This document shows, piece after piece, positions 14,700 through 60,617 of a stretch of DNA of 64,000 bases (positions are counted from its first letter, which is position 1; each line of letters begins with the position of its first letter). Origin of the DNA: Gautieria morchelliformis (lineage: Eukaryota; Basidiomycota; Agaricomycetes; Gomphales; Gomphaceae); contig WHVA01000565.1 of the NCBI GenBank assembly GCA_015179125.1, positions 1 to 64,000 on the forward strand. The letters are read 5' to 3'. The translations under genes and the position numbers were made by a program. The notes beneath the pieces were generated by a model. That model searched no databases. It worked only from the letters and a program-made list of their open reading frames with translations, and was not told the origin of the DNA.

Positions 14700-17600
14700 G
14701 AGGAATTTGCGTTCACCACGACGTTCGCTGGGACCACACTTGCGCTGGGAACGAGTACATCGACGGGACACGAAGTCGACGTCTATGACTCGGGCGCGTC
14801 AGGTCATATGTCGCCGAGCAGACACTGATTCCTCACCTTCAAGGGGATTGCGCCACGCACAATTAATGCCGCGGACAAGACCGTCTTCCAAGCTATGGGA
14901 ATTGGGAATATGCGAGTCAGCATACCCAACGGCAAAACGACAACGCACGTCACATTGAAGGACGTACTATACTGCCCCAATCTTGCCTTTACCCTAATCT
15001 CCTTAACACGCTGCGATGTGGCCGGCTAATTGGTCCTCCTGAAGGACCAGAAGTGCTTGATTCAGGACGCTCGAGGAACGCTGCTCGGGCAGGTTCTGCT
15101 CTCGAATGGGCCTACAAGGTAGAGCACATGTCAACGGTGGTGACAGCAAATGCAGTACGGAAACCACTCACCCTGGACGAACTGCACCGCCGGATGGGGC
15201 ACATCTCCCCACAAGCCACGAAGAAGCTAGTCCATGACGGCACTGTAACCGGGCTCGATGTCGATATGTCGAGTCAACCCGGGTTTTGCACTGCATGCGC
15301 GCAGGCGAAACCGACACACAAGCCCGTCCCGCAGAAGCGGGAGGGACTGCGTGCCACATCATTTGGTGAAAAAGTCCATTCGGACGTTTGGGGGCCCACG
15401 AACCCCCAAAGTTACGACGGCAAGGAATACTTCGTAAGTTTCACCGATGACTATAGCCGGTGGACATACCTGGAGACCATAGCAAAGAAAAGTGACACTT
15501 TTGGTCGCTACCGGCAATACGAGGCCTGGGTGGAAACTCAGCACAACGCTAAGGTCAAAAGATTGCAAACTGACCGAGGGGGCGAGTACCTCTCCGATGA
15601 GTTCACGGCTCACCTGAAGTCGAAAGGAACTGTGAGAAGCCTTACCGTGCACGACACACCAGAAGAAAACGGCGTATCTGAACGTCTCAACCGTACGCTG
15701 CTTGAGCATGCACGGGCAATGCATCTCACGGCAGCCCTACCGAAGTTCCTGTGGACGGAATCCATCCAACATGCGGTCTGGCTGAAAAACAGGACCTCGA
15801 CGTGCGCGCTCGACGGCAAGACACCGTACGAGATCGTGCACGGCGCGAGACCTGACCTCAGCGACCTCCCGGTATGGGGAGCCAGGGTGTACATCCTGAA
15901 AGAAGACCAGGGAAAATTAGAGCCTAAGGCAGATGAGGGCAGATGGGTGGGCTACAGTGACGAGAGTAAAGGGCATAGGGTCTATTGGCCTGGGAAACGC
16001 CGTGTCACAGTGGAGCGCAATGTGACTTTCGACGAGTCAGTTGTAGTCACCACTGATGCACAGGCTGAGAGGGAGACTACTGCCCAAGACAGCCAGAACG
16101 TCAGCGGCGCCCCACACGGCCAACTGAATGACAGCGACGCCCCACACGGCCAACCCTTACCACCCCCAGCCACAGACCACACACGCATTGACCCCCTAGA
16201 AGCACTCGAGCGACTCGAGGCCCTGGACCCTCTAGCGGACCGGCTGCAGGGTAGGGGCCAACGCGCACGGAAGCCATCCGCGTATGTCTGTGGGATCGCC
16301 GACGGTACCGGCAGCAGTACAGGATGGGCGAACGCACCTACGTATCCTCGAGGACTACCCATGCCCACCGAGAACTCGGCCCTAGTGGCACTGGTGGAGC
16401 TGGAAGAGGGCGATGGGACTGTGGGGGGGGTGCGCCGACCCATCGAATTCTCGATGGCAGCAGCCGCGCACGAGGCAGGGGCTGACCCGGTAAACCTAAA
16501 TGATGCACGTTCGCGTGAGGACTGGCCTGAGTGGGACGCGTCTATAAGGCGTGAACTGGACCAGCACACGAACCTGAGAACATGGGACCTGGTAGAGCCC
16601 CCAGAAGGCGCGAACATTGTCGGCAGCCGACTTGTATTCCACTACAAGCATGACGCGGATGGCAAAGTAGTAACGCACAAGACTAGGCTCGTCGCACAGG
16701 GATTCACACAGACAGAAGGCATAGACTATAATGAAACCTTCTCCCCTACCGCCAAACTCTCCGCCATCCGCATTATCGCTGCAATCGCCATCAGAAACAA
16801 CTGGGAACTTGAACAGACCGACATAGATGGTGCGTACCTCAATGCACCGATTACCGAAACGGTCTACATGTGCCAGGCGAAGGGCTACGAAGTTCCCGGA
16901 AAGGAACACTACGTATGCCAACTCAACCGCGCGATATACGGCCTGAAACAGTCAGGAAGGGAGTGGTACGACATGTTGTGTGACATAATGTACAGGTTCG
17001 GGTTTACTCGCTGCGAAGTTGAGCACGCAGTATTCCACAGGTACGCCGGCCAGAACGCGCTCATCATCACAGTCGACGTCGATGACCTCACCATGGCCGG
17101 TAACACGAAGGAGGTCATTCGAGGGTTCAAAGACGAGCTGCGAACGGTCCTCAAAATTAAGGACCTCGGAGACCTGCACTGGCTGCTGGGAATTGAGGTA
17201 AAACGAGACCACGCGTTGCGCACGATTTCATTCTCGCAGCACGCGTATATCAGAAAGATCCTGGAGCGGTTCAATCTACAAAACGCTAACCCCCTCAGCA
17301 CGCCGCTCGACCCTCACCACAGGCTTTCCTCATCCCAATCCCCTTCCACCCCTCACCAGCTCGAGGATATGCGCGGCGTACCGTACAGGGAGGCGATAGG
17401 ATCCCTTATGTACGCCGCATTGGGCACACGCCCGGACATTTCTTTCACAGTCTCTTTTCTTGCACAATTCATGCAGAATCCTGGTAGACCCCACTGGGAA
17501 GCCGTGAAGAGAGTTTTCCGTTACTTGAAGGGGACGATGGACATATGCCTCGTCATCGGCAGGTCACCCAAGGGCCTAGACGCGTTCTCAGACGTGGACT

Positions 17601-18160
17601 GGGCATCCCAGGAACATCGACACTCGATCTCCAGCTATGTGTTTACGATAGGAGGCGGCGCTGTCTCGTGGAGTTCGAAGAAGCAGGCCATTGTCACGTT
17701 GTCCACCACCGAAGCCGAGTACATCGCTGCGACGCACGCCGCGAAAGAGGCACTCTGGGTGCGCATGTTCTTAGCCGAAATCGCTCGCCCACTCGTGAAA
17801 CCCATCACAACCCACCTCAACAACGTCTCCGCCATTTCCATCACGAAGAATGATGAGTACCACCCTCGCACCAAACACATCGACATACGCTACCATTTCA
17901 TACGTCACGCGGTACAACGACAGCTTATCAACGTCGACTACGTGCCCACGGACAACATGGCCGCGGACATGTTTACGAAGGCCCTCCCCAGACACAAGGT
18001 CGTGCACCTGAATGCACTGATAGGCCTACGTCCAGCTTATGGGGGGGGTGTCGGGGTGCGATCGCCGGTAAGCTTGGGACGCAGCCCTGTATCACTAGGG
18101 ATCGAAGGTATGCTCGGAGTCTGTCAGACTCCGAGCATAGGTTATATAGCGGACAAGTAG
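14700..18160 (+). pseudogene. Copia pol (protease, integrase, reverse transcriptase, RNase H)
   Basis: The protease motif YDSGASGHM lies near 14785. The integrase zinc region (LHRRMGHISPQATKKL, then FCTACAQAK) is at about 15180-15310, followed by the DDE core (DYSRWTYLETI, then LQTDRGGEY and ENGVSERLNRTLLEHARA). Reverse transcriptase spans about 16500-17250 with LVAQGFTQTEGIDYNETFSP and the VDVDDLTMAG active site. RNase H lies at about 17560-17990 (DVDWASQEHRHSISSY, TTEAEYIAATHAAKEALW). Most of pol lies in one long frame, 15053-18160, that ends just inside the 3' LTR. Confidence 0.92.
18041..18048 (+). promoter_or_regulatory. Copia polypurine tract
   Basis: A run of G residues lies immediately before the 3' LTR, in the expected position for plus-strand priming. 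Confidence 0.7.
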
Positions 18161-19158: not shown

Positions 19159-19160
19159 TA

Positions 19161-19465
19161 CAGCCATTTGCAGTCAAGTCTGGGCTCCGACGCACGTCGT
19201 ACTTTTTCAGCCACTTTATAGCTAAACACACCCCTGGTTTTTCCTTTACAACTAGATGTTATCTCAGCTAGCTTCCTTAATAAAAAACACTCAGAAAATC
19301 ATCATCTAGCTTCTCGTGAAGAGCTTTTAGCTTGGGAGGTCGCCATTAATTGGGGGCCGCAACCAGGCCTCTTGCGGCCCTTGGGGGATTTTTCCAAAGC
19401 TCCTATGCCATTTCACCACACCAGACCTTTTAGAAACTGAAGTCCCGGTCCTGACTGGAGCTATC
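19161..19465 (+). repeat. Left TIR of the Tc1/mariner-like element
   Basis: About 305 bp, starting CAGCCATTTGCAGTCAAGTC. Its reverse complement is found at 32124-32430 with roughly 90% or more identity, continuous through CTGACTGGAGCTATCA. The transposase ATG at 19466 begins right at its inner edge. Confidence 0.93.
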
Positions 19466-20474
19466 ATGAAGAGTTTTTGCCGTTATCTATTTTCTGGTGA
19501 GTGGAACTGTTGTTTCTGGGCTCGAGTGACATTCTCTAAGTGTTCCCACGCCTTGCATTGTTTCGCAGCTCTGCCCACCATGCCCAACCGGATTTGGGTG
19601 TCTGAGGACTTATGCTGGGCAATTATTCATATGCTCTCAGTATTCCCTATTGCTGAGGTTTCTGCATACAGTGGAGTGAGCGTTAATAATATCAAAAGCA
19701 TCCAGGCTTTGCATCATCAAACTGGTGAGGTTGTCAACGATTATGGATTGAGGAGGAGGCGGAGGGCCTTGAGGATGGTGGATATTGAGGTGCGTGTCTT
19801 CAATGTATTTCTTGGCTAATGCTCACCATCAGATTACAGCTGCTCCATGGGTGCTGCTTTGGAACCCTTCAAGGCTTTGGTGTTATTGCTAACACTTCAA
19901 TCTATCAGAACGTGTCGTTTACGAGACTCAAAGAATATCAAACAATGCTGCAGCACAACTCCGGAAATAATTTAATATTTGTACCTTGGTTGCAATCTGC
20001 GTAAGAACTAGTCCAAGTTAATACGGATGGAAGGCAATACGTTTCTTAGTAGCACTGAACAATAAACTAAAAGACTGTAGGTTCAAGGACACTATCAGGG
20101 TCCAAGCGTATTCCAAAATATAAAGGAATGTACTTAGCAGGTGAGTTTATAAATGGACTGCCCTGATAATCTACCAGCGCACTGCAATAAAACAAGGGAT
20201 GAGTTTTGTGAACAAAGCGACTTGTGAAAGTCTCTAATCAGGAAAATCAACTGATCAGATCGTCTTGGGTATTGGAGTGTGAATGGCAAGACTTTCAATT
20301 GACAGACTCACTCTGTAGAATTACACCTGGAGGATTAGTCCAAGTAACTAAGCAGTAAAGTAACTACTTAACAAGGAATTAGGCACTAAAGTAAGTGAAT
20401 AACCCTAGCTGGGATTAGCAGCTTAGTAAGATGCAAGTCACATGAGGTCACGAAAGGCAGGCAAAAGGGCCTCC

Positions 20475-20960
20475 TAGTGTCCTGCAAAGCCCGGCTCGGC
20501 TCACACCGGCTCAGGCTCACCAAATTCAGAGCTGGGCTTTGAGAGCCGGCTCGGGCTCGGCTCGGCCTGGGCTGGGGCTCGTGAGTGGGCACATCGTTTG
20601 AGGGGATGCAATGCCAAACTCAAAATTCTACGTACTTTTAAGTAAACAGTTGTATTCTACATACTCAAATATTCCTTTGAAAGGTGTCTAGACCACCTGA
20701 GGGACCTCCGGACCTTCCTTAATTAATGCCAGCCATGCAAAGATGACACGGCTGAATCTCATAGTTACCCGATTCGCACATAACCGGTGAGCGCTTGGGT
20801 AAGCGCTCAAGCCGCGGCTTGACGGCTCGGCTCGGGCTCTCCAAAACTCAGGCCGAGCCCTAGCTGCCGGCCTCAGGACGGCTTTGGCCCGGCTCGGCCC
20901 GGCTTTTGGCAGCTCGGCTCCAGCTTAGCCACGGCCTAAGCCGAGCTTTGCAGAACACTA
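20475..20960. mobile_element. hAT-type MITE
   Basis: 486 bp with a perfect 8-bp target duplication GGGCCTCC (20467-20474 and 20961-20968) and imperfect terminal inverted repeats (TAGTGTCCTGCAAAGC at the left; TAGTGTTCTGCAAAGC on the complementary strand at the right). The interior is rich in GGCTCGG and GCTCGGCT repeats and has no coding capacity. The 8-bp duplication and TIR shape fit a non-autonomous hAT element. Confidence 0.92.
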
Positions 20961-21037
20961 GGGCCTCCTTTTATATTGTATTGTACAGGCGCTTAACTAA
21001 GCGGTAGAACCTTCTATCTATTAATGGAATGGGGGAA

Positions 21038-21260
21038 TGAGTCACGAAGAAGCTTTCAGAATGTGTGGGAAGGTTCTATCTGACTCATAATGACTCACAG
21101 TGACTTGAAATGACTCCTACTGGTGACTCCACAGGGTTTTCCACCAATCAGGGCTTGATTTGTCAGGAATGAGTCATTAACTGGACTCATGTGATTTATG
21201 ACAGCTTGGGTGAGTCATGTACATGTGACTCATCAAGGTGTGCATGAGTCGGTTGAGTCA
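21038..21260. repeat. Cluster of TGAGTCA/TGACTCA motifs
   Basis: Seven exact copies of the palindromic heptamer TGA(G/C)TCA, plus several one-off variants, lie within about 225 bp. One pair forms a near-perfect inverted repeat, GAGTCATGTACATGTGACTC. The heptamer equals the known Gcn4/AP-1 (bZIP) binding site. Whether it acts as a regulatory array or is a degenerate repeat is unknown. Confidence 0.6.
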
Positions 21261-23211
21261 TTGCGGCTGTACAAGCAAATGACTAGGCTTTTCGAACTCA
21301 GAGGCTGAGTCTGAAGGAGCCGCCTGGCCAGATTTGTGGGTGACCGCAGGTGCACAATCCATGAGTGCGTGAGTGTCTGGTTGGAGTTTGAAATCGGAAG
21401 TGAAGGAGGTAAACGCGTAAGCCAGGGGCAAACCGCATCACCCCGTGTCACCCCATTGTGACAATATATGCGCAGTCTCATTGTTCCACTGTTTTATTGT
21501 CCTATGTGCCTATTGTAGTTTATCTCCCATTGTTCTCCCATAGTATAAAGTAGGTAGCTAGAAGTCCTTCTTCCTCAGTACTTTGCACTTGAGCAATTAC
21601 TGAGGTAAGACATTCGGTATATTTCTTTTATTCATTTTACTTATACGCTTGTATAGATTACTCGCATAGGTAAACTTATATAGTACTTTGCACTGAGCAA
21701 TTACTGAGATTACTCACATAGCTATAATTATTCTTACAGGAAGTCCAAAACAGAGTTGTGGGGACATGTGTATCCACAACTCTGCTGCACAGAAATAAGT
21801 GTGTTTGAGTGAAGACAGCCTCGGAGAATTAAGTAAAATTCATAGATAATTATAGGGAGGTTTGAATAGGCCTTATGAGGATAGTAGATATTTTTATGAT
21901 GGCGATAAATGGTTGTTTTAAAAGCCTCTGATGCAGAATACAAATTTACAGTAAAGAGACAGTTTGAAGGCTGGTTGAACAGCTTGATCTGAGACTATAC
22001 AGTATGCTGGTTGAACAGCAGTTCCCATACAGGTGCTTGCGTCAAAACTGTGACACTTATCTGGATGAATTACAGGTGGCTTTGCGAACTATCCATGGTA
22101 TTACTATATCTCTCGCTACTATATCGTGATCATTGCGGGCATCAGGTTTCTCAATGAAGAAGGTGAGTAAATGTTATCTCTACAGAGCTTTGGAGGTGCT
22201 GTTCTGACTGTGTAAAGCTCACGCGGGTGGCTGCGGAGCGTAGTGCACTCAAGTGTGCAGAGTTTGTGGCAAGGATAGGTAAGTATTCGCGAGAACAGCT
22301 GGTATTTGTGGATGAAAGTGCAGCCGATTGTTGGACAACTTACCGAGGGAGGGCATGGGCCATTCGAGGTCAGTGGGCATTGTGTAAGGCTTGTTTTGTA
22401 CGAGGCAAGAGGTGAGTGAGATGACAATTAGTGGTGTGCGAGGGGACTAGCTGAATGGGGTACAGGTGCTCGATTCTTCCGGCGCTCACGATCAACGGGA
22501 TACTGTACGTTACGATTCTGGAGGGGTCATTCACCTCGGCCACCTTCACACAATTTATTGTGCAGTTGTTGGACCAAATGAGCCCGTACCTGGGACCCAA
22601 TTCTGTCATTGTGATGGATAACTGTAAGATTCACAAGTGCCTGGATATTTTGGAAATGATAGTGGAACGGTATGTGCGTATGTACTTTGGCAGCTCGCAT
22701 ATTGATTTTATTGTCACAGGGGTATGCGGTATGAGTTCTTACCACTGTATTTACTGGATTACAATCCGATAGAAGAGGCGTTCTCAGCGATCAAAGCCCA
22801 CCTCAGGCGCGATGGTGACTTGGTTCGGGTAGGCATGACACAACAAGACGATACGGATGTATATGTATGTTTGCACAACACTGTGTGGTCCATTACAGCC
22901 AAGGATGCACAAGGCTGGTTCAGTCACAGTGGATATTAGGTATAGGAGGGTATCTACTGTATTTCTAACAAGAAGGCAAGCTTGGCTCAATGATACCTAC
23001 GACGCTTGGCACAGCGTTTCTCATTGGCCTCATGCTTGCATATTTTAGCTACTTCCTTCGTTGCCTGCTTCAAAATTAACTTGGGGGTTCCTTTGAAAAG
23101 GCCTGGACAATGTGTGAGCATCTCAGGGATGGTGAGCCCATCTGCAAGCTGTGACATCCTAATATATCCTTGTCCTCGGAGTGGCAGGGCATGTGGCATG
23201 AAGACATGCCC

Positions 23212-23686
23212 TGTCAGGGGACACCCTGTTTTCCAGTTCCGACACCACACCAAGTTCCAACTCCATTTCCAACTCCACTTCCAGTTCTGCTTCCATCTCC
23301 GACTCCGCTTTCGGAAATGATTCCGCTTCGGGGAGAACTTCCACCAGTTCTCTTCGCTTTGCCAATTCCACTCCAATTTCCGACTTCCGCTCTTGGAACA
23401 GTGTCAGAAATCAAGTGACTCGTGTAATAGGTGGCATCAAGGGTCAATCAAGGGTCAGGGAGATGCAGGGTTGATGGTGAGTGCCGAGTGTTGTCCCTGA
23501 CTGCGGAGCATAGTATAATTCGGGCTCGCTGACATTGGGGGCCCTTAGACCTTTCTCTTCGGATTTCCCCCTGTCAGGTGAGAATCCCCTCTCTTGTATA
23601 CTCTGTTCATTTATACATACTTCAGATTTCCCCCTGTCAGCTGTGTGGTAGTGTGATCTCCACAGCTAGCTAGGGTTGCCCTTACA
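23212..23686 (+). repeat. Gypsy copy 2, 5' LTR
   Basis: Starts TGTCAGGGGACACCC and ends GTTGCCCTTACA; about 95% identical to 30038-30512. Confidence 0.94.
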
Positions 23687-23876
23687 GCAGAAAAGTCTCT
23701 CCCCTAGAGGACCGGCGGTCGTACTGCGCGTTGCATTCACCATAGGTGCATTTGGAATCGGAGATAGTGACTCAGAGATCACAACCTCTTCCATGCACAT
23801 GGCATATGACAGCCACAGTTCTTACGTCGAGCTCCCAACCCCAGAAGTCCTGTCCCATACTTCTCCTCCTTTGGAC

Positions 23877-25010
23877 ATGGATCCAGATGATCGCCTTCAG
23901 AATATGGAGGAGGAGTTGACACGGAACCGGATGAAGACCGACGCGATTGAGACAGCCTTACAAACGATTTTGGCTAAGTTAGATATTCCACAAGGTGGTG
24001 GAAATGCAATGCAGGATGAGTTGGATTTCGGAAAAGCGGAAGTAGCCGAAGAGAGGATGTCCATGAAGTTGGCGAAAGTCAAACCCACGACTCCAGCGGA
24101 CTTTGACAGAGATCGGGAGAAGGTTTGCGCATTATTCAACACATGCAGCATCTACTTCACAATTGTCGGAGACCTCTTTCCGAACAACCAGGCTTGGATT
24201 CACTGGGCATTGTCCTTTTTCAAGTCGGACTGTGCAGCCCGTTTTGCGAACAAGGTGATCCAACATGAACCAAAGGGCAAGGGGAACTACTTCTGGGACT
24301 GGGATGCCTTCGAGAAAACATTTTCTGACCAGTTCTTCCTGAAAAACGAGCAGCTCACAGCCCTTATGAATCTTGAGGCGACCAACTGGTACCAGGCCAA
24401 GGATCCGGTCGATGACTACATCGATCGCTTCCAGGAGCTCATTGACCTTGCGGAGTATGACGACGACAAGATGATTGTCATCAAATTCCGAAGAGGACTC
24501 ACTCCAGAACCAAGTCGCACTGCTTGGGGATGGAGCTCTGGATTTCGATGACCTGGAAGGGTGGTACCAAGCTGCGCAAAGGGTGTCCCAAAACAGGGAA
24601 GCAAATGAGGCCTTTGTGGAGACAAACTGGAACACAACACGCAGTTCCGCTCGTCCTACTCCACCTGTACCAAGACGCGGAAGTGCATTCATTCTGACAT
24701 GGAAATTATTTCCTATGGTTGCTCCGCCTGCCCCCACTAGGAACCCTAGTCCCCCTCCCTCGAAGAGTGGCCCTGCTCCAATGGATGTCGACCGCATGTG
24801 CAGAAAAGGCAATGGAACTGTCACCTGCTTCCGATGCCGACAGCCAGGCCACTATGCCCCGAGTGCCCCCAAGCTTTTGACATCCAGCTTATGACCACAG
24901 AGGAGAAACTCGAGCTCCTTCCAGAGTTCCTCACACTGGCAGACATAAGCAGAGTGCCCACTGTGGAAGAAAGTTCTGAAAATGCGGAACTCGGAAGAGG
25001 AAGATGCGTC
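23877..25010 (+). pseudogene. Gypsy copy 2 gag
   Basis: Starts at ATG 23877 (MDPDDRLQNMEEEL). It carries the same retrotrans_gag core as copies 1 and 3 (WALSFFKSDCAARFANKVI) and a zinc-knuckle region near 24830 (CFRCRQPGHY). Decayed; it would have formed the element's capsid. Confidence 0.85.
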
Positions 25011-27531
25011 GGATTTTGTGATGCGCAGTGGGTGCAATGTGTGCACCTGCTGCCTGTACATAACCGGTTTGCCTGTCTTTAAGTAGAGAATGAGAAGCCC
25101 CCACTCCCCTCACTTTGTACAGACCCACCGGATAAAGTCACACAAAAGCCAAATCCAACAGCCCATCTGTCTGCATCCGCCCTTGGGAGAGACGCCTCCC
25201 GAAGTGCTATGTTGTTGCTGCCACCCCAAGCCCCATGTCACTAGTCATCAAGGTGGAGATCCAGACAATGGACATGGTGGAAGTCAAATCTGGACCTGCA
25301 CTTGTCGATTGCGGGGCCACTGATCAGTTTATGGACCGGGACTATGTGGAACGGAACCAATTGACCACATGGAAGTTGCAACGTGCAATCCCAGTGTTCA
25401 ATGTGGATGGAAGCCCCAATGAGGCAGGGTCCATCACCTACAATGGACACACGGAACACACTTCCTTTGCAGTCACCAGCCTGGGGAAGCAAGACATCAT
25501 CCTCGGATTTACCTGGCTGCAGGAGCACAACCCGGAGATTAACTGGCAGACTCGGAAGGTGCTGATGAGTCGATGCCCAGCCAAGTGTTACATGTGCTGG
25601 TCGGAAGTGCGGAAGGAGCGCCAGGAGCAGCGGAAGACCGAACGACTCATACAGACATGTCATTCTGGCCCCCATCCACTGCTTGCAGAAGATGGTCCGG
25701 AAGCGGAATTCGAACCAGCTCCCACTTCCCATTCCACTTCCGATTCTGATTCTGATTCCGATTCCGATTCCGATTCCGACTCCGACATCATCCGACTTGG
25801 CCCGGAAGACACTCTGGCGGAGGGGGAGCACTTGCTGTACGTAAACCTTCCACCCGAAGCAGAACATGTCCCTGCCACCGGAAATATTTCCCAGCACCTC
25901 GCAGAAGCCTCCAGGAAGCATGGTAAAGTGGAGGTGGAGATTCCAGAGTACCTGCAGGAGTTCAAGGATGTCTTTGCCAGGGAGTAGTTTGATGCCCTGC
26001 CTCCATGGAAGCTGTGGGACCATGCCATCGAGTTGGAGCCTGGGTCAAAGCCCACCAACTGCAAGGTCTACCTGCCGTCACCCAGGGAGCAAGTAGAGCT
26101 TGATGCATTCCTTGAGGAGAACCTCCATACTGGGAGGATCCACCCCTCCAAGTCACCCATGGCATCTCCAGTGTTCTTCATCAAGAAGAAGGATGGCTCC
26201 CTCAGACTTGTACAGGCTTACCGGGCTTTGAATGCGATCATGATCAAGAACCAGTACCCCATTCTGCTCATTTCTGAACTGATCACACAACTCCGTGGTG
26301 CAAGGTACTTCACTAAGCTGGATGTCTGCTGGGGGTTCAACAATGTTCGGATCCGTGAGGGAGACGAGTGGAAGGCTGCATTCCACACTAACCGGGGACT
26401 CTTTGAGCCACAGGTCATGTTCTTTGGCCTCACCAACAGTCCCGCCACATTCCAGATGATGATGAATGACATCTTCCGTGACATGATAGCAGAAGGGGTT
26501 GTCTGTGTCTACCTCGATAACATCCTCATCTTCACGAAAACAATGCCGGAACATCAGGAGGTCGTGTGGAGAGTGCTGGAGCGGCTCTGGGAATACAACC
26601 TGTGTCTCAAGCCGGAGAAGTGCGAATTTGAGCGGATGCGGATAGAGTATCTTGGGGTGATCATGTCAGAAGGAAAGGTGGAAATGGACCCAGTCAAAGT
26701 TTCCGGTGTGTTGGAATGGCCTGCGCTGCAGAACAAGAAGGAAGTCCAGTCCTTCGTCGGGTTTGTCAATTTCTACCAGCAATTCATCAAGGACTTCTCC
26801 TGCCATGCCTGTGCTCTCTTCGACCTCACCAAGAAGGGTGTTGGATGGCAGTGGGGGGAGCCATAACAGGCCTCCTTTGACAAACTCAAGGAGCTGATCA
26901 CTTCTGCCCCGGTCCTGATATTTCCCGACAACTCTCGTCCTTATCAAGTCGAAGCGGATTCTTCTGACGCAGCCACCGGAGCGGTCTTGTCACAGAAGTC
27001 ATCGGAAGATGGTAGCAGGTCAGGTGGCATCCAATTGCCTTCTTCTCCAAGAGCCTTAGTCCGGTGGAGCGGAATTATGAGATCCACAACAAGGAAATGC
27101 TACCGATCATCTGAGCGCTGGAGGAGTGGTGACACTTCCTCGAGGGTGCTCTGTGTCCGTTCGAGATCTGGACAGACCACAAGAACCTTTAGTACTTCCG
27201 CACATCCAAGAAGTTGAACCGACGACAGCCACGGTGGTCCCTATACCTGTCTCGGTTCGACTTCATGCTCCATCACCGCCCCGGCTGCACCATGGGCAAG
27301 CCTGATGCCCTATCCCGCTGTGCGGATCATGGAAGTGGAAGCGGAGATAATGCTGACATGACATTGATCCACCCAAGCCTCTTTGCAATCCGTGCACTTG
27401 AAGGGGTGACCACAGTTGGGGCGGAAGTGGAAATGCTCCGGGACATCTGGAGGCAGTACCGGAATGGAGAGAAGGAGGAATCGGTGGTGAAGGGGGTGGA
27501 GGAGCTGCGGAAAGGACATTCATGGTCAGTA

Positions 27532-28599
27532 TTTTTGGATTAGGATGTTAATTGGTGCCTTTTAACAAATAAGATCTATTGCTCAGTGGTTGGGACCACT
27601 GTGTTCACCTCTCTTCTATGTGCTGACTAAGCCTTTCGAGGCGCGTCCGACACTGATGGATGAGAGTCACGTGACCGTGTCGACAGAAGAATGGTGTCGA
27701 TCCAAGGGATAACCAAATCAAAAGCATTCGCTTTTAAGGTAGTATAGAGTAAACAGTGATAGTGAACCCTCAACGAAGATTTGGAATAAACTATCAAGAT
27801 TTGGACCCTGTAGCTATCAAACAAGACTACAGTGGTTTCAGGGGGTAAAATAATCGATTCTGGATGATCTCGTTCATACATTTGTACTAGCTATTTATAC
27901 TATGTTAATAGTAACTACTAGTGTTCAAGATATTGGACAGATGGGTCGAAAAGCTACTTGTAACTAAGGGGTGACTAATTTATAGTCATAAAGTCATGGG
28001 GTGATGGAGATAGTATCAGGATTACTTAGGCTTTGGAATAGAAATCTGTACTTAGCATACAAAGCCCCTGTCCACATGATGTTAGGATAATAGTCAGCCG
28101 GTCATGTCATGGAGTTCAAATAGAAAAATGGAGTTAAATCTGCCCTGCCTAGCATAAATGCTAGGCTTGGTGATGGGGCCGCTGTCTCTGTGCCTTTTCT
28201 GTGGGGCAGCTAATTGAGTGTGTGTACTGTGGATGATATTCTCAAATCACTCCACAGTACCCTGTGCTCCTGCGCAGTCTATTACTCTCTGCGGCGTTTG
28301 GTGCCCGCACCCTCTCCATGCCTGTGGCCTGGCACTTGTCAACGTCATGGCCGATGCCATCACTCGATAGGCGCGCTATCCCTGATCGACCGCACGTGGT
28401 CGATGCCCGAACCTCTGTACCTTACCCGATCTATGGGTAAGGTAGCAAGTCATAAATTCATGTGCTCGTCGTCTGTGCTGACGTCTATCGTGAGTGTCAT
28501 TTCTATCTTTTTTTTTTGATCTTTTTCTTGTTTTCTTTCTTTATTAGTTTCTTTTATATATAAATGATTTAAAATAGGATAGTTGCGTTTATCACAACA
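27532..28599. mobile_element. Unclassified 1068-bp insertion in Gypsy copy 2, hairpin-rich
   Basis: The pol sequence of copy 2 is interrupted here relative to copy 1. The flanks share AGTA (27528-27531 and 28600-28603), a likely 4-bp target duplication. No coding region or terminal inverted repeat was found. A tRNA-like box A (GCTCAGTGGTTGGGACC, 27581) and a weak box B-like stretch (27633) hint at a SINE-like head. The right half holds a series of hairpins (28147-28442) and then a T-rich tract. The class is unknown; a structured-RNA-derived element or an organellar fragment are alternatives. Confidence 0.6.
28147..28442. repeat. Series of short perfect hairpins
   Basis: Consecutive inverted repeats: GCCTAGCAT/ATGCTAGGC (28147-28166), GTACTGTGGA/TCCACAGTAC (28224-28260), GTGCC/GGCAC (28301-28335), ATGGC/GCCAT (28347-28360), GATAG/CTATC (28366-28380), ATCGACC/GGTCGAT (28385-28404) and CCTTACCC/GGGTAAGG (28420-28442). 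Stems are 5-10 bp with short loops in most cases, which suggests a folded RNA or mobile hairpins. Confidence 0.7.
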
Positions 28600-30037
28600 A
28601 GTATGGGTGGCAGAGTGGTCAGAACATGATGGGTTGCTCCACTTCAGGGGCAAGGTCTATGTTCCGGATGGGGTGGACCTCCCCCGCTGCATTGTGTCCC
28701 AACACCATGACACCTGGGTCACAGGACATGCTGGCAGGTGGAAGACACTGGAGTTAGTGGCTCGGAATTACTGGTGGCCTCAGATGTCCCGCTACATTGG
28801 ACAGTATGTGAAGACGTGCGACCTTTGTCTCCAGACCAAAGCACAGCGGCATCCACCCATTGAGGAGCTTGTTCCACTCCCGATTCCAGAATCCTGCTGG
28901 GACACCATCAGTGTCGACTTCATCATTGAACTCCCAGAGTCTCATGGCTACGACACAATCATGAACGTCGTGGACGTGGTAAGCAAGGTGTCCCACTTCA
29001 TTCTGACACACACAACGATCACGGCCCTCGGAGTGGCCCGCCTGTTCCTTGCGCATGTCTGGAAGCTGCATGGACTCCCGAAGCAAGTCGTTTCTGACCG
29101 AGGTCTGCAGTTCGTCGCAGAACTGACATGAGAGCTCTACCGCCTGCTCAGAATAAAGCTGGCTGCCACCACAGCATACCATCCACAGGGTGATGGACAG
29201 ACAGAACGGGTCAATCAAGAGCTGGAGCAATAGCTCTGCCTCTTTGTCAACGAGAGGCAGGATGACTGGGACAAGCTACTTCCACTGGCGGAATTCCAAT
29301 ACAACAACCATGTACATTCTGCCACACAGCAGACTCCCTTCATGCTTGACTCCGGACGACACCCGCGGATGGGCTTCGAGCCATGCCAGGCAGAGTCCTG
29401 ACTTGAGACAGTCAATGAGTTCCGAGACCACATGGACTCCACCCTTTTGGAAGCCAAGTCTGCCCTTGCAAAGGCCAAGGACGACATGGCAAGGTACTAC
29501 AACCAATGCCGAGTTTCTGCCCCGGAGTACCAAGTCAGAGACAAGGTGTATTTAGACACAAGTGACATCCGCACCACACACCCTTCATAGAAGCTTGCCC
29601 ACCGCTACCTGGGGCCCTTCACAGTGATGCGGAGAGTTGGACGGAATGCATACCACCTCCGACTTCCGATGTCCATGTCCCACCTCCACCCCGTCTTCAA
29701 TGTGGTGAAGTTACTCCCTATGCTTGAGGACCCAATTCCAGGTCGGAAGGCTCAACCACCACCTCCACCGGAAATCATAGATGGGGAAGAACATTATGTG
29801 GTGGAACCAATCCTAGACAGCTGGTTTGTGTGAGGGCGACTCCAATTCCTCATAAAATGGGAAGGATATGGGTATGAGGAGAATTCATGGGTCCCAGAGC
29901 AAGATGTCTCCGCTCCGGACAAACTCAGTGAGTTCTATAGGACACACCCTGGTGCCCCTTGCCAAATCTGTTCGCTGGCCTTTGAATCCCTCGTGTCCCA
30001 TGCTTCGAGGATGCAGCATGCTAGAGGGGGGGGGTGA

Positions 30038-30512
30038 TGTCAGGGGACACCCTGTTTTCCAGTTCCAAAACCACATGAAGTTCTGACTCCATTTCCGACT
30101 CCGCTTCAAGTTCCGCTTACATCTCCGACTCCGCTTTCGGAAATGATTCCGCTTCAGGGAGAACTTCCAGCAGTTCTCTTCACTTTGCCAATTCCACTCC
30201 AATTTCCGACTTCCACTCTCGGAACAGTGTCAGAAATCAAGTGACTCGTGTAATAGGTGGCATCAAGGGTCAATCAAGGGTCAGGGAGATGCAGGGTTGA
30301 TGGTGAGTGCCGAGTGTTGTCCCTGACTGCAGAGCATAGTATAATACGGGCTCGGTGACATTGGGGGTCCTTAGACTTTTCTCTTTGGATTTCCCCCTGT
30401 CAGGTGAGAATCCCCTCTCTTGTATACTCTTTTCATTTATACATACTTTGGATTTCCCCCTGTCAGCTGTGTGGTAGTGTGATCTCCACAGCCAGCTAGG
30501 GTTGCCCTTACA
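30038..30512 (+). repeat. Gypsy copy 2, 3' LTR
   Basis: Preceded by a G-rich polypurine tract (AGAGGGGGGGG, about 30024-30034) and followed by the target duplication TGCCC. Confidence 0.94.
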
Positions 30513-32123
30513 TGCCCATCTTGACCAAGTGGACCCTGCTTCAATTTAGCTACCCATTCTTTGACATGGGGGAAGAGCATGGGATCCTCAATCTCCTCCA
30601 GATCGGAACTTGGGTTACTTTCCCACGTGCGTGGTGTTTGTGCACTGGTCCGTGGCTCTGAATGTGGGGTGCCATATGATGCCTGTAGATAGTGGCCATA
30701 ATATGGTGGTGGGGGTGGTGGCACCCAGTAATGATATGGCATTCCCCCTGGAGGCAGATTGTATGGCGCCATATCAGGTGCATATGCAGGGGGATCTGGA
30801 GCTGCGGCTGGTCTTCCTCTTCCTCAGGCTGGCACTCGGCCATCCAGCAGCCCAATTTCTGGTGGCAATTCTTCCAAATCCTTGTCAGCTTTGCCTTGTT
30901 CCTAGAATAAATGATCAAACTTGCCCTGCAATAAGTTGTGTGATTTACTCACAAGCAACAAACCCCACAAGCTCAAATCACTGGATTTTAACTTGTTATG
31001 GACACCTCCAAAGCCAATCTTGCAGTATTCCCCACCATGCTCCTGGCAAGTATATTTCTGTTGTAAATCAAGCACCCAATGTGCCTGAATCGAACCATTG
31101 CGGCCTTCCTCCGGCGCATGGGTACTATTTCTGTCACTGTCGCTGTTATCGTTCCCATGCTTGCGCTTCTTGCTCAAGTGATCACCTTTGGTCTTTGCTT
31201 TATCCTTCACTTCTCCTGTCCATGCTCTTTGGGCCATAAGTCAAATAAAATTACCTCAAAACCCTTGAGTTTCTTGCTGCATGCTTTTAGAACCTTCTGT
31301 TGAAGCAGTTCCTCATGTACTGCAGTTGCCCTGTCCTTTAACTCAAGCCAGTGACCAAGCGTGTTCAAGAGGCGTGCGGGTGCATCTTTTGTTTCAGTGC
31401 TGAGCTTGTAAGACAAATCCAGACACTTCACGGCTATATCCATTTTGTCTGCGATGTGGTATTGTACGCTTGTCCAGGATGCATCAGATGCGATCTTGAG
31501 TGTGTCGATTGTCTTTGGGCCTGTTGGCACCTGGAATGGTATATCCCAGACTGTATGACATGAGCAAACCGCTCATGTCAGGTCGAGAAACCCCCTTACC
31601 AGGTACTTCTACCACCAACTCATCCTCATCATTGTCAAATGAATTAATTGACCCATGTACAGATTCGGCCCCCAGCTCCATAATATCACTGTCTAACTCT
31701 TTTGAATCATTGTCCATCGCCCTCACATCACTTTCCAACTCGGCCTCTATACCCTTCAATGTCATCCTTATCCCACTCACGGAACTCACATTTCCATCAC
31801 CTTGCAGCAAAAACAACAAGGCCTCCCCAGCTTGAATTTCAGCATTGGTGTTTGTAGTGACTGATGCCCTAGCAGAATCCCATGTCGGTTGCGGTCTAGC
31901 TCGTGCTCCTGGTCCCAACACCGGTGGCTGTGGCTGCAACATCATAGTCTCCATTCCCATGTTCTTCAGGCTCACCGGGACCTTGGCAGGACAGCCCTTT
32001 TTTCTCTTTGCTCCTGACATAGGACAGAGCAATTCTAGACAAGCTTACTTGCATGAGACGCTGGAAAACCACTCAAGAGGACTTTCCACTCACCAGAAAA
32101 TAGATAATGGCAAAATCTCTTTG

Positions 32124-32430
32124 TGATAGCTCCAGTCAGGACCGGGACTTCAGTTTCTAAAAGGTCCGGTGTGGTAAAATTGCGTAGGAGCTTTGGAAAA
32201 ATCCCCCAAGGGCCGCAAGAGGCCTGGTTGCAGCCCCCAATGAACGGCGACCTCCCGAGCTAAAAGCTCTTCGTGAGAGGCTAGATGATGATTTTCTGAG
32301 TGTTTTTTATTAAGGAAGCTAGCTGAGATAATGTCTAGTTGTAAAGAAAAAAACCAGGGGTGTGTTTAGCTGTAAAGTGGCTGAAAAAGTACGATGCGCG
32401 TCGGAGTCCAGAATTGACTGCAAACAGCTG
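32124..32430 (-). repeat. Right TIR of the Tc1/mariner-like element
   Basis: Inverted copy of 19161-19465, ending CAAACAGCTG and followed by TA. Differences from the left copy are scattered point changes and one or two short indels. Confidence 0.93.
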
Positions 32431-32432
32431 TA

Positions 32433-32614: not shown

Positions 32615-33930
32615 GTGCCCCTCCTCCTTCTGCAACAACGTACTCCTGGCTCTGGGATACACCCCTCTGGCACCACAGCCACTGAACCGACCGATGACCT
32701 GAACCCTGACAATGACCTGAACCCTGACAATGACCTGAACCCTGACAATGACCTGAACCCTGACAATGACCTGAACCCTGACAATGACCTGAACCCTGAC
32801 AATGACCTGAACCCTGACAATGACCTGAACCCTGACGACACTCTTGCCATCTCAGTCATCTGCAGTTCTTTGCCCAAGGTGGTCCCACACCTGGAACAGG
32901 GGGGCGAGTGGATAACGCTGGAGTACCTCCAGCTGATGAGTGAGGCCGAGTGCATCTGGAGGTTCAGGTGAGTATACACTACTCCACCTGAGCGCTTGAA
33001 CAAACTCACAAAAACACACACATTAGGTTTACAGCAGGGGAACTTCAGCTCTTTGCAGATCTTTTGCAGCTCCCGAAACCTCTCATCACAGCCTCCAGGA
33101 GCTGCGCAAGTGCCCTCGAGGTGATCTCACTTCTTTGTGCATGCCTGCGGAGCCCAGAGGACCAGTGGTCCTTATCCACAAAGTATCACCGTCCTCAGTG
33201 CACTATCTCCCAAATCACCAATGAGACGGCCTCATTCATCAATGCCTGGTGGGGCTTTCTCCTTGACTGGGACCAGCATGGGCTTCTGTCCCCGGAGAAG
33301 CTGTGCAAGTATGCCGATGCCCTCTACAATTTTGGAGCACCCTGTCACAGCATCTTTGGCTTCATCGATTGCACAATCCAGCAGACGTGCCGGCCAGGGA
33401 TGTATCAGGAGCTTGCCTACACCGGTTATAAGAAATGTCATGGGATGAAGTTTCAGGGGGTTGTCATCCCCAATGGCTTGATTGCGCATCTTGATGGCCC
33501 ATACAGGGCCCCACAGAACGATGCTGGAGTCCTGAAGAAAAGCTCTCTGCTCAAGCATCTCGAGCAGTATGCGATTCAGCCTGGGTCACGGGAAGGGGAT
33601 GCACCTGGGGATCGTTATTTCCAGGTGTACGGTGATTCACCCCTTTATAGTGAGTCCCTATTCCACGGTGAATGTGCTTACCCCAGAACAACGTGCCTGG
33701 AACACTGCAATGGGTGGGGTACGGATATCCGTGGAGCATGGCTTCGGCCTCATTTTGCAGGATTGGCCATTCCTCCATGCCTTTTGGAAGCACAAGATAT
33801 GGGGGAATGGGTGTGGGACCATGTACCATGTTGGTGTTCTCCTCACAAACAGGCATTTGTGCTTGGAGCTGAATCAGACTTCCCTTTGTTATTCATGTCC
33901 ACCCCCTTTCCTCCAAGAATACTTCCATGA
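32615..33930 (+). pseudogene. PIF/Harbinger transposase (DDE_Tnp_4), one apparent frameshift
   Basis: Harbinger transposases move DNA with a partner MYB-like protein. An upstream exon holds eight in-frame DLNPDN repeats and ends YLQLMSEAECIWRF. An intron (32968-33026, GTGAGT to ATTAG) leads into FTAGELQLFADLLQLPKPL. The catalytic core has IFGFIDCTIQQTCRPG (first Asp, 33352), KCHGMKFQGVVIPNGLIAHL, DGPYRAPQND and FQVYGDSPLY (second Asp, near 33632). The rest, LTPEQRAWNTAMGGVRISVE (catalytic Glu, near 33740) and HGFGLILQDWPFLHAFWK, lies in another frame, so a frameshift near 33640-33650 separates them. No ATG was found near the 5' end, so the start is unresolved. The gene is probably inactive. 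Confidence 0.87.
32693..32836 (+). repeat. 18-bp tandem repeat, 8 copies, in frame
   Basis: Eight copies of AATGACCTGAACCCTGAC (the first starts with G), nearly perfect. They encode (DLNPDN)n in the N-terminal part of the Harbinger transposase. The homogeneity suggests recent slippage. Confidence 0.95.
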
Positions 33931-36801: not shown

Positions 36802-37689
36802 GGTTGACCTCGATCACAGCGCAGAGGAGTTGGTCGAGGTCACACAAAGAAAATGCTTCATGCGCCTTGTGTGAAGATATGGGTTGTGACCCAAGACCCT
36901 TAGATGACGTGTCTAACCTGGTGTTCGATGACTTGTCAGGTGTGTTAGGGGGTGCAGTGACAGAGGTAACAAGGGAGGGGGCAACAGCCGGTGGATGGGG
37001 CACGTTAGTAGAGTTCAGAAAAGGGCGGGACCAAGCCTTTCCTCAATCCCACCTGCTTGTGATGTGATCGGAGCGCTAGGGGTGTTATAAAAGACAGTGG
37101 GTGGGATAGGCTGCATACTCACATGCGATGCAGTGGGTGTGGGTTGGAATGGACACGTGGGTGTGGGCTGGAGTGGATGTGCATGTGATAATATTTTCTC
37201 ATGCACCTGTAGGATAGGATTAGCAGTTCAGTGTAGTCCGCAACTAATATCTATTACAAACTAATATTGTCTAAGGCCGCAAGGCAATATCAATAGTATA
37301 AAGATGGGTGCGTGGGTGGTTGTGGGGGTGTTTGTGTTTTACGTAATCCTGACTAAGATGCAAACAAACCACGCATCCAACTTTCTACTGACAACGCGCA
37401 GTGCAGTGAGCGCCCCTGGTCACGTGACCAGTTCGCGTCCAACGCTGCTGCGCGCGCACCCACCTTCCCTCAACCCTCCTGCTGCCATTTCCTCTGGTTC
37501 AACTGGCAACCTCTGGCTCTCCTGCCCACTGTCTCTGTGCCTGCTGGATCTGTCTGTCTGCTGCTGGCTCTCTGCATCTGGATCTCTGTCTGGCTCTCTG
37601 TGTCTGGCTCTCTGTGTCTGTTTCTGGCTCTCTCTTTCTCTGCTGGTGGGTCTGTCTGTCACTGCTGGTAACTTTTATTTCTCTACAGT

Positions 37690-38460
37690 CCCCTCAGGTA
37701 TTTCTTCCAATATTTTCGCTTTTTTAACTCTCTTTTTTTACTTCTTTTCAGCCTAGGGTGCTCCTCTCATTGCCTCCCATCTTTCCTGATGCCTCTGGTG
37801 TGTTTTCTACTTCTCATATCTGTCATTTCCTGCAATAATTTTCGCTTTTTTATCCTCTTTTTTTTTTCTTTTTCCTTTTCTTCTTCAGTCCAGGTTCCTC
37901 CTCTCAGTGCTCCCACTTTTCCTGTCAGTCATGGCTGCATCTTGTGTGTGTGTTGCTACCATATTTGTGTTGTTTTGATATTTATTAGGATCAGCTTCTC
38001 TCCATGGTAAGTATTGCTATTTCTTGCCATAATTTTCGCTTTTTTAATCTCTTTTTGCCTTTGTTTCTCCTCTCATTGCCTCCCACCTTTCTTGGCCATC
38101 ATTACAGTCCCTGTTGTGTTTTTTCTGTCATTTCTTCCAATAATTTTCGCTTTTTTATCCTCTTTTTGCCATCTTTTCAGCCCAGGTTCCTCCTCTCTAT
38201 GCCCCCCACCTTTCCTGTCTGTTATTTCTGCATCTGGTGTGTGTCCTGCTATCATATTTTTGTGTTTTTTTTTTTATATTTATTAGGATCACCTTCTCTC
38301 CATGGTATTTCTTCCAACATTGTCGCTTTTTTAACCACTTTTTGACTTTTTTTCAACCTAGGTTGCTCCTTTCATTGCCTCCCAACTTTCCTTATGCCTC
38401 TGGTGTGTTTTCTACATCTCATATCTGTCATTTCCTGCAATAATTTTCGCTTTTTTATCC

Positions 38461-38507
<47 letters not shown>

Positions 38508-39250
38508 CTTCAGCCCAGGTTCCTCCTCTCAGTGCACCCACCGTTCCTGTCAGTCATGGCTGCATCTGGTGTGTGTGTGTTGCTATCATATTTGTGTTGT
38601 TTTGATATTTATTAGGGTTAGCTTCTCTCCATGGTAAGTATTGCTATTTCTTGCTATAATTTTCGCTTTTTTAATCTCTTTTTGCCTATGTTGCTCCTCT
38701 CATTGCCTCCCACCTTTCTTGGCCACAATTACTGCCTCTGGTGTGTTTTTTCCTTATCATATCTGTCATTTCTTCCAATAATTTTCGCTTTTTTATTCTC
38801 TTTTGGCCTTCTTTTCAGCCCAGCTTCCTCTCAGTGCCTCCCACCTTGCCTGTCTGACATTGCTGCATCTGGTGTGTTTCTTGCTATCATATTTATGTTG
38901 TTTTGATATTTATTAGGATCAGCTTCTATCCATGGTATTTCTTGCACTAATTTTCGCTTTTTTACCCTCTTTTTGACTGCTTTTCAGCCTATGTTGCTCC
39001 TCTCATTGCCGCCCACCTTTCATGGGTATCATTACTGGCTCTGATGTGTTTTTTCCTTATCATTTCCAATAATATTCTCTTTTTTATTCTCTTTTGGTTT
39101 ATTTTTATTTATTTTTATTTTTATTTTTATTTTCTGCCCAGGTTCCTCCTCTTAGTGTCTCACAGCCTGTCTGCCATTGCTGCATCTGGTGTGTGTCTTC
39201 TATCATATTTGTGTTGTTGTGATAATTATTAGGATCACTGCCTCTTTTTT
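37690..39250 (+). repeat. Degenerate satellite array with splice-like motifs
   Basis: About ten copies of a T-rich core (ATAATTTTCGCTTTTTTATC and variants) alternate at spacings of roughly 110-180 bp with blocks such as CCCAGGTTCCTCCTCTCAGTG, TGCATCTGGTGTGTGT and TTGATATTTATTAGGATCAGC. Many units contain TTTTCAG before CC and some contain CCATGGTAAGTATTGC, resembling acceptor and donor sites. A higher-order unit of about 290-600 bp is suggested. Confidence 0.75.
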
Positions 39251-51885: not shown

Positions 51886-53066
51886 GACGATAGGTGCTCG
51901 TTTTGGCTTCCAAGTGGCTCAGAAACAGTAAGTATCTGGTCACTGCCCGTGACTGTATGCAGAAACTTTCAAGGTTACTTATGCTTCAAGTGCAAGCATG
52001 AATAAGTATGATCAGACAGATGATGTAATAGTTATGGGTCATACGGCACCTGGAACTCAAGTCAGAGATCAGCAATGACTCTACTTGTGTTCGAGGCTCT
52101 GACCTGGCTGTTCTATACGGATACGTTAGATGGTGTTAACACTGTTAAGGAAGAACTCCGACTGTGGACTGTTGTAGGCGTCGGTGACGGCTATGTTCAT
52201 GACCAATTACCAAGTATCCCTCGACGGACGATATCACTGGTGGTGCAGGGGCGCGTAGATGCAATACTCGCCCAGGCTGGCTTGCTAGCGTGGACCATCA
52301 TGGACGCGTCTGTCACGTGATTTTGGTCTCTTCTCATCGCCGATGGCGATCGACTCTACATATATGGCACGCAGCCCTCTGGGCTGAAGGACATTGTCCG
52401 CTCTTCCCATGGCTCGGGGATATTATCGCGCCATACATTGTGCATGGTTTCTCCCTAACAAGTCGCTGAAAGTAGCACTGTAGTATGACTGTGGCATTGC
52501 TACTGCAGTCTGCCGAACGACAATAGTAATTTTCCCAACACCAAGGTAAGCAATACGGTTGGATGTTATGGATACAACGTCTCCGCAACAGAGGCTATTA
52601 GAAGTAGTAGCGAGTGGCATTGTGGTAGATTTCGGAAGCTTCCTGATAGTTTTTTTTTCTTAAATAACTAATTGCTTCTATTTTCTGACTGCCAGTCGAC
52701 GTATGGAGGTAGTACACTACTGCTAGTGACTCAGCGCAGGCATTACGCCCGCTTCGAGCCCACCGCCATTGCCCCCATTCTCTCTCCTCCCCACACCTAA
52801 CAAGGCCACCTGGCCGAGTGAAGATCGTCGAAAATCATGCTTTAGAAGGTATTTTAATCAATATCGGACCGGCTAGCGTTGGAACAGATACGATAGATGT
52901 TAGTCCACTCCCAACGTCATCCTGCGATTAGTATAGTCCCATTCCCTTCTGCAACAGAAATCCCGGGCCATACGAAAGCCTGTCGTACTCACGCAAAGAA
53001 TTTCCGCTCCCATGCGATCTTTTCTGGGAGTTGTCTTCTATACAACCTGAAGCTATTGACCACATT
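51886..53066. other. Intergenic region without an assigned gene
   Basis: Two opposite short open stretches (52075-52320 plus; 52423-52620 minus, containing TSNRIAYLGVGKITIVVRQT) show no recognisable domain. The rest shows no clear feature. It may hold the promoters of the SDR gene and of the ORF starting near 53.08 kb. Confidence 0.4.
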
Positions 53067-53078
53067 ATCGTATGGATG

Positions 53079-53718
53079 TTATGTATACCTCTTTCCCTCG
53101 AGGTTCACCTTTCACTTTATCCCAGCTAAACACACAGCTATCCCCATCCGTGTTGCAACCGGAAGTCCCGATTCTTCAGCTAACCGAGGTCTCCAAGGTC
53201 AGCTTGGAGACTAAACACGACTCAGTCCGAAAGCGTCTTGACCGAAGAATCAGTGGCGTCTGCGCACACCTCATCTCGAAGACAATCGTCTGCGCTTATC
53301 ACGTTCTTATGCAAGCCTTTAGAGTCTCTTCTTGGAGACTTATGCGGTGACGATGATGGTCCAGACGACGTAGAATCCGTATGTATATGCGTCATCACTG
53401 ACAAAAGCTCCAACTTGCTAACACATCACATCGACCAGGAACCAGCCATAACTGCTGTGAACACGTCTGTAATGTTTGAAACCCCTGTTTGTCTATCGCC
53501 TGTGGCGCGCACTTCCTCTCCAGCTCCTAATTTGCCTCCCTTATTGCACGTTGACATGCTTTCCCGGACGAGCGGACGCTTCACTAGGACCAAGGGTTAT
53601 GCCATCAATAATACATCCTCTTTAGAGCCCCTCAAAGCACCGGCAGCTTCAAAAAAAGAAGGTTTTGTCATCACCTTTCCTACCAGGAGCTCTTCGCCAA
53701 CAGCACAGACAGGGGTTC
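53079..53718 (+). CDS. Uncharacterised gene cut by a Gypsy insertion
   Basis: A possible start at 53079 (MYTSFPRGSPFTLSQLNTQL) leads into VLQPEVPILQLTEVSKVSLE. In another frame from about 53260 it continues with FLCKPLESLLGDLCGDDDGP, TAVNTSVMFETPVCLSPVAR, LHVDMLSRTSGRFTRTKGYA and PAASKKEGFVITFPTRSSS. The Gypsy element enters at 53719 in this frame. Just beyond the element, 61176-61193 is open and followed by a GTGAGA donor-like site, so the exon may have continued there. The protein is Ser/Pro-rich and low in recognisable structure. An intron near 53250-53270 or a frameshift is needed. No family recognised. Confidence 0.4.
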
Positions 53719-54280
53719 TGTAAGAACCCGGCCTTTGGCCGGTTACTTACCGGTAAAACCTTCTTCCAAGCCCGAGCCGTATGATATTCGTGCCCGAGTA
53801 CATATGATCCATATCTGCACCCGAGCCCGAGCCCGAGCTTGAGTTCATATCCGACCTTGATCCCATGCCCGTATCCCCTTAGTTACTGATTCCGCTCCAT
53901 CACGCATCATTTGTATATTACCTCGCCCTGACCTCGGTCTCCTGACCTCGCCCTGACCTCCACTAATATGTTGACCCCTGACTCGCACCCTCGCCCGTAT
54001 ATGGTTCCCCCTTGTATGCATTCCTACTCCTCAGTCTGAAAATCAACTATCGTATCCCTTGATCCTTAGCTAGTTTCTAAGCCTCGCCTCTTAAGCCAAA
54101 CCTCGCCTCTTATTCGTTTGCCTCCGAAGTTGGGACTCGTGCGTAGGGTCGGCGCAGCACATAAGCTGAAGCCAAGTCCCTCTCCGACTTCCCCATCCAA
54201 ACCTCGCCTCGTGACCTCGGACCTTACCTTGGGCTTCGCTCCCGACTTCGGTCAACCTTATGATGGATCATATCGTAACA
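53719..54280 (+). repeat. Second-family Gypsy 5' LTR
   Basis: Starts TGTAAGAACCCGGCC, contains the palindrome-rich GGCCTTTGGCCGGTTACTTACCGG and GAGCCCGAGCCCGAG repeats, and ends CGTAACA. Confidence 0.93.
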
Positions 54281-54499
54281 GTATTTTCAGACTGCTTACA
54301 CCCTACGTATCCCTTTTCTTCACTATGTCCATGATGACTAGTTCTCGCACCCTTCGGGGTATATCAGAACAACGACGTTTCTCGGAAGCCCCCGACGACT
54401 CTCCACCGTCCCAGGGATACCCCTTGCAGACCCCGCCGAGCCTAGTAACAAAGGCAAAGGTAGGGCTAACCCCGGTGATCCTTCAGGTGATCCAGGTGA

Positions 54500-55489: not shown

Positions 55490-55639
55490 AGGTTGGGCAG
55501 CAAAGACCCCTAACGAGGGGACTTCGGCCTCCATTATGGAGGTGAAAAAATAGGTAGCAACCTCGGAACCACACGATCCGAGGATTGCGGTAACCTCACC
55601 TGTGTGCTCAGACTCAGTGCCGCTTCTCATTCATTGTCC

Positions 55640-60481: not shown

Positions 60482-60617
60482 CCTTTTATCTAACCTCGGC
60501 TACGATTTAAGCTTCGCCTTTCCGGCTACTTAACATCGGGCCGGGATCTAGATTCGAGGATAGGCGAACCTTGTTCACATTACGGCCTCGAGGGTCTCGG
60601 CCATAAGGAGGGGATAC

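Follow-up and report, generated by a model that had tools for sequence, protein, structure and literature searches.

The window analysed here, a stretch of 64,000 bp from Gautieria morchelliformis (positions 1 to 64,000 of contig WHVA01000565.1), contains at 19161-32430 an element of the Tc1/mariner-IS630 type, bounded by terminal inverted repeats (TIRs) of approximately 347 bp and flanked on both sides by TA (Table 1). The matched repeats recognised in the initial annotation are present and do end at TA, the element reading TTA-CAGCC...CAGCTG-TAA, but they extend to approximately 347 bp rather than the 305 bp first estimated; they align over 347 columns with one gap, and their first 75 bases pair at 91% without gaps, whereas the best of 5000 random stretches from the window reached 34%. 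Between the repeats lie a transposase gene and a convergent second gene, whose tblastn pieces fall on opposite strands, as originally read, and the gap between the two stops, put at 48 bp in that reading, measures 47 bp both in the window coordinates and in a gene model built on another copy, C372. The span of 13,270 bp, in contrast, cannot be taken as the length of the element itself, since two later insertions lie inside it; once both are subtracted, and in comparison with the uninterrupted copies C674, C372 and C217, the element measures approximately 3,782 bp.

Table 1. Features of the two-gene element in the window and the evidence for each.
Feature	Position	Strand	Evidence
Left TA target duplication	19159..19160		sequence TTA-CAGCC
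Left TIR, ~346 bp	19161..19506	+	92.5% to right TIR; 45 genome matches with 19161-19470
Transposase gene, interrupted	19580..22939	+	tblastn pieces 19580-19792, 22010-22171, 22215-22688, 22715-22936; C372 gene model; Pfam
2,176-bp insertion, abundant interspersed repeat	19856..22031		6-bp duplication GGTGCT; start of transposase exon 2
Second gene, interrupted	22987..32020	-	tblastn pieces 32020-31598, 31536-31255, 31213-30455, 23211-22990; C372 gene model
Nested Gypsy-type long terminal repeat (LTR) retrotransposon	23212..30512	+	5-bp duplication TGCCC; in last exon of second gene
Right TIR, ~347 bp	32084..32430	-	inverted repeat to left TIR
Right TA target duplication	32431..32432		sequence CAGCTG-TAA

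The window copy is a relic in which both genes are interrupted. The insertion in the transposase gene belongs to a repeat that is very abundant in the genome (1,676 first-look candidates, of which the best 40 were scored), and the retrotransposon in the second gene has LTRs of approximately 475 bp, 94.5% alike over 472 aligned bp, together with matches to RVT_1, Integrase_H2C2 and, weakly, zf-CCHC. Four stops fall within the transposase matches and two within those of the second gene, some of them possibly intronic. Because the window copy is only ~93-94% identical to C674, C372 and C217, which are 98.2-99.2% alike among themselves, it represents an older insertion, afterwards broken by the two other elements. 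The repeat in the transposase gene is itself interrupted by other sequence, its matched parts covering approximately positions 3-597, 1105-1546 and 1884-2176.

Both genes were modelled on the C372 copy, with the splice sites deduced from the reading frames. The transposase model comprises five exons separated by introns of 50-55 nt and encodes 322 amino acids (aa), which match DDE_3 in Pfam (E=3.2e-30) and the IS630 model NF033545 in NCBIfam (152.1 bits, cut-off 100). An N-terminal helix-turn-helix (HTH) is recognised by HTH_33 (30.5 bits, cut-off 25), while HTH_Tnp_Tc3_2 scores 18.5 bits, under its cut-off of 31.5, and comparison with the PDB returned nothing at E<=1. The transposases of the two families described below, A and B, share the DD34E spacing. 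With a transposase of the DDE_3/IS630 type, this spacing, an N-terminal HTH, TIRs and a TA duplication, the element belongs to the IS630-Tc1-mariner superfamily. Typical elements of the Tc1/mariner group carry one gene, that of the transposase, and short TIRs, although some have TIRs of 200 bp or more; families A and B depart from this single-gene plan in carrying a second conserved gene. The model of the latter has three exons, introns of 79 and 51 nt and a product of 530 aa (517 aa when a 39-nt stretch, a doubtful intron, is omitted).

The search for homologues was confined to the host genome, and in the second-gene searches all first-look candidates were scored. Five family A copies (C372, C674, C217, C737 and the window copy) carry the two genes between a left and a right TIR; those that are uninterrupted measure approximately 3.77 kb, with TIRs of ~345 bp ending CAGCCGTTTGCAGTC that are 97-99% alike within each of the C674, C372 and C217 copies. 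Family B provides a further copy, at C226:129316-133074, with an identical convergent arrangement of the two genes, the same ends and a TIR on either side (336 bp, 97.9% alike). All six copies whose interior is readable on both sides (C674, C372, C217, C737, C632 and C226) hold both genes. The lineage with a second gene proposed in the initial annotation is thus supported, as both genes appear again in families A and B, and the recurrence of the pair inside the same TIRs, flanked by TA duplications, on which that proposal was to be judged, was found within this genome in five A copies and one B copy, with empty sites for C674, C217 and C226.

Altogether the second gene lies at 14 distinct loci, which comprise five of family A (C372, C737, C217, C632 and C674), two of family B (C226:130.8k and C743), three relics (C138, C471 and C228) and four derivatives of 1.5 kb (C728, C1081, C226:609k and C748). 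A TIR match lies nearby at 13 of them, so the gene does not reside mainly at TIR-free host loci, an outcome that the earlier reading had named as contrary to its proposal. The rearranged relic C138 retains parts of both genes, and in C743, where the second gene is present, the match to family B stops just past it, beside an open reading frame (ORF) that appears gag-like by eye. TIR copies lacking a whole second gene, the other contrary outcome named, do exist, and those read fall into two groups: deletion derivatives in which the transposase is missing as well, and copies interrupted by a retrotransposon. Among the former, C1081, C226:609k and C728 consist of TIRs, an inner TIR copy and the region of both convergent gene ends, with no whole transposase (the inner copy, also found in C748, is diverged, at 72-77% identity to the window TIR), and the 762-bp derivative C504 matches the element at its ends only; such small derivatives presumably moved in trans. 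In the latter, C453 and C201, the transposase side is present and runs into one identical retrotransposon. The ORFs of that retrotransposon resemble by eye those of the element at 23212-30512 in the window.

Insertion into TA is borne out by empty sites. When the flanks of C674, C217 and C226 are joined with a single TA, they align unbroken to paralogous sequences that lack the element: C915 and C892 for C674 (98% over 107 bp each), C634 for C217 (93%) and C1 for the family B copy C226 (97% over 118 bp). A longer target duplication, considered in view of the TTA...TAA ends, was rejected, as the empty sites fit TA only. C941 (5390-5719), related to the C226 site, lacks 10 bp where the insertion lies; this loss may be a scar of excision or an unrelated event. 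The repeat that harbours the C504 derivative is the abundant one found in the window transposase gene; the joined flanks of C504 are 97% identical (178/184) to window positions 19855-20038, but this related copy in the window reads CA at the TA position. Most of the element ends examined show a T-TA / TA-A context, the exceptions being CAA at the right end of L019 and CTA at the left end of L028.

The comparison of families A and B bears on whether the second gene is maintained. The transposases share 81% aa identity, with a non-synonymous divergence (dN) of 0.117, a synonymous divergence (dS) of 2.38 (NG86) and a proportion of synonymous differences (pS) of 0.72, while the second proteins share 64%, with a dN of 0.262, a dS of 1.98 (NG86) and a pS of 0.70. 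The resulting dN/dS is ~0.05 for the transposase and ~0.13 for the second gene, and the ratio of the uncorrected proportions (pN/pS) is 0.150 (0.112-0.191, codon bootstrap) and 0.317 (0.267-0.372, codon bootstrap), respectively; all these values come from one pair of copies, with the 39-nt stretch omitted from the second gene in both. Synonymous sites have almost saturated between the families while both proteins remain conserved, which makes the second gene appear to be a component of the element maintained by selection; even if the 39-nt stretch were coding, constraint would be visible over the remainder.

By our own reading of motifs, the second protein opens with a basic, AT-hook-like segment (KRKKGRPAK) and contains a C-x2-H...C motif and a proline/tyrosine-rich stretch. 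Its C-terminal 98 aa are conserved, with 67% identity between A and B, and the C-terminus has a basic tail. A SAM-like or zinc-finger reading was considered and discarded: Pfam returned no SAM match and, on one piece, nothing beyond a chance-level DSL match (E 0.035). A scan of viral contigs with the two-member alignment of the second protein gave no confirmed match.

A second convergent gene also occurs in a sister family. Transposases ~45% identical to that of the element are far more numerous in the genome (at least 241 matches), and family D has ends reading TTA-CACCCGTTTGCAGT, close to CAGCCGTTTGCAGT. The family D end gave 297 first-look candidates, of which the best 40 were scored; they are 98-100% alike, with six oppositely oriented pairs among them at spacings of 4.9-14.5 kb. 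One element, L035 (C158:127900-135050), has an inverted repeat of at least 714 bp (96%) with TA at both ends. Three relatives were tested for the A/B second gene, two of family D (L030 and L032) and one more distant (L031), and none yielded it. In its place, convergent with the family D transposase, lies a kinase of the FunK1 family (PF17667), detected on one piece of L035 above the cut-off (1.5e-7) and on pieces of L030 and L035 below it (3.6e-5 and 0.004). The L035 kinase shows the motif HRDVSVGNVML by eye, and its frames are broken. Among the matches listed, 118 FunK1 pieces merge into 83 loci, at least 26 of which have a listed transposase of these relatives within 4 kb, all 26 in convergent orientation; no listed transposase comes that close to the remaining 57, the strongest FunK1 matches among them. 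The two lists cover the best 107 of 377 and 124 of 601 candidates, and L035 falls outside the 26, which makes that count a lower bound. A second convergent gene may be a standing feature of one fungal branch of IS630-Tc1-mariner elements, its identity swapped between families (an orphan in A and B, FunK1 in D). In that case some FunK1 genes would belong to transposons, and transposition would be controlled by kinase signalling or by the orphan protein; we advance this tentatively, at somewhat less than even odds.

The existence of a two-gene variant of the IS630-Tc1-mariner superfamily is well supported. Our preferred explanation, to which we give a probability of roughly 0.6, is that the element is a genuine two-gene cut-and-paste transposon whose second protein acts in the nucleus as an accessory factor that binds DNA or chromatin. 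By analogy with PIF/Harbinger, a nuclear accessory protein is the most likely role: such a protein would attach to the long TIRs or to the transposase, and might assist in assembling the transposition complex or in transposase delivery, a part played in those elements by the Myb-like protein. Whether nested insertion merely enclosed unrelated genes between TIR copies was worth asking of a window copy that does contain two nested insertions; this reading is refuted to the point of being negligible by the presence of the second gene in uninterrupted copies of 3.77 kb and again in family B. DNA transposons are known to capture genes between their TIRs, and the kinase in family D belongs to a host family; a captured host gene carried as a useless passenger is nonetheless highly improbable here, because the two genes stayed together and conserved as synonymous sites neared saturation (pN/pS 0.317 for the second) and because the searches of the genome yielded no clear homologue at a host locus, the TIR-less C471 being an interrupted relic with stops. 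We also regard as unlikely, though to be taken seriously, a second gene that is selected outside the transposition machinery as a survival helper, anti-silencing or regulatory, which keeps the transposase expressed. Such a role would suit a protein that is less conserved than the transposase (the dN values above) and has no known catalytic domain in Pfam or NCBIfam, and the kinase at the same place in family D fits regulation better than DNA cutting; the long TIRs and the tight convergent packing, however, fit a part in the machinery equally well.

Several observations weigh against the preferred explanation. The splice sites are predictions from the reading frames, and neither Pfam (E<=1) nor NCBIfam gives a match to the second protein; a PDB profile search gave three weak matches (E 0.0056 to 1.2) to unrelated proteins, which were rejected, and single-sequence structure predictions for two fragments of it from the window were uninformative (mean predicted local distance difference test scores, pLDDT, of 57 and 54). 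In C226 and C743, the two family B copies read, the second gene contains an in-frame stop inside the 39-nt stretch, which is shorter than the other introns and in which the differences between A and B look codon-like by eye; if it is coding, the gene may be broken in these two copies. C674 and C217 carry frameshifts in its last exon. The selection test is a single pair with dS near saturation, and for the second-gene locus in C471 the 8.4 kb examined contain no TIR, though a TIR match in fitting orientation lies ~20 kb upstream.

The accessory role is modelled on PIF/Harbinger, from which the present family differs in several features. PIF/Harbinger elements make a 3-bp target duplication, unlike the TA of the present family; their transposase is of the DDE_Tnp_4 type, while the present one is DDE_3/IS630 and gives no match to PF13359 at E<=1; and their second protein is Myb/SANT/MADF-like, whereas ours has no such Pfam match at E<=1, a remote fold relation being possible. 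Common to both are two genes per element, and in the rice and zebrafish systems the transposase and its DNA-binding partner are both required, the Myb-like partner binding subterminal DNA and being needed for nuclear co-localisation (PMC9710019). The ciliate Tec and TBE elements are described as members of the Tc1/mariner superfamily with DD34E and extra ORFs (one in complement in Tec), Tec TIRs of ~700 bp and purifying selection on TBE ORFs (PMC7325037). They resemble the present family in the DD34E spacing, the extra genes and, for Tec, the long TIRs, and differ in that the extra genes, as summarised there (PMC7325037), encode a site-specific recombinase, a zinc-finger protein or products of unknown function, while the second protein here lacks a Pfam match at the same threshold.

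Among basidiomycetes, the Tc1-mariner element TIR_1 of Pleurotus ostreatus, like the present family, is described as having a DDE_3 transposase, long TIRs (214 nt), a TA duplication and truncated, non-autonomous copies; its length is given as 1.6 (apparently kb) and the portion of the text concerned mentions only a transposase, as against 3.77 kb, TIRs of ~345 bp and two genes here, a comparison made by description (PMC4905642). MarorTcMar-18 of Marasmius oreades is a mushroom mariner-type element of similar size (3,972 bp) that has a mobile relative of only 1,120 bp, again compared by its summary description (PMC9674265). What appears to be new, judged against these partial accounts, is a second gene in a fungal Tc1/mariner element, while multi-gene relatives in ciliates (PMC7325037) and long TIRs in a mushroom element (PMC4905642) were already known. 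A literature search covering titles and abstract openings, with Repbase outside its scope, found no two-gene fungal Tc1/mariner element and no transposon-borne FunK1, which is not proof of absence. Tc1/mariner elements are textbook transposons that need their transposase alone; a family that has kept its second gene through deep divergence, together with a sister family bearing a kinase at that position, would imply that certain members rely on a partner protein or exploit one. A direct and testable account would also follow of why FunK1 genes multiply at non-syntenic places in some fungi: lineage-specific FunK1 expansion by duplication is reported, as is, in Paracoccidioides, an enrichment in non-syntenic regions (PMC3203195). 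Transposon-borne FunK1 may explain part of such fungal expansions.

Other mobile-element traces adjoin the element in the window. Just upstream, at 15053-18160, lies a Copia-type polyprotein ORF with an open frame of 1,035 aa (RVT_2, 4.8e-70), and just downstream, at 33064-33930, an ORF with a DDE_Tnp_4 match (E=1.4e-10). Approximately eight tandem copies of an 18-bp unit (ATGACCTGAACCCTGACA) occupy 32694-32836, inside an open frame of 118 aa. Further along, strand asymmetry is strong at 37000-39000, where the AT skew is -0.57 at 38-39 kb, and at 53000-61000, where the GC skew falls to -0.45 at 59-60 kb.

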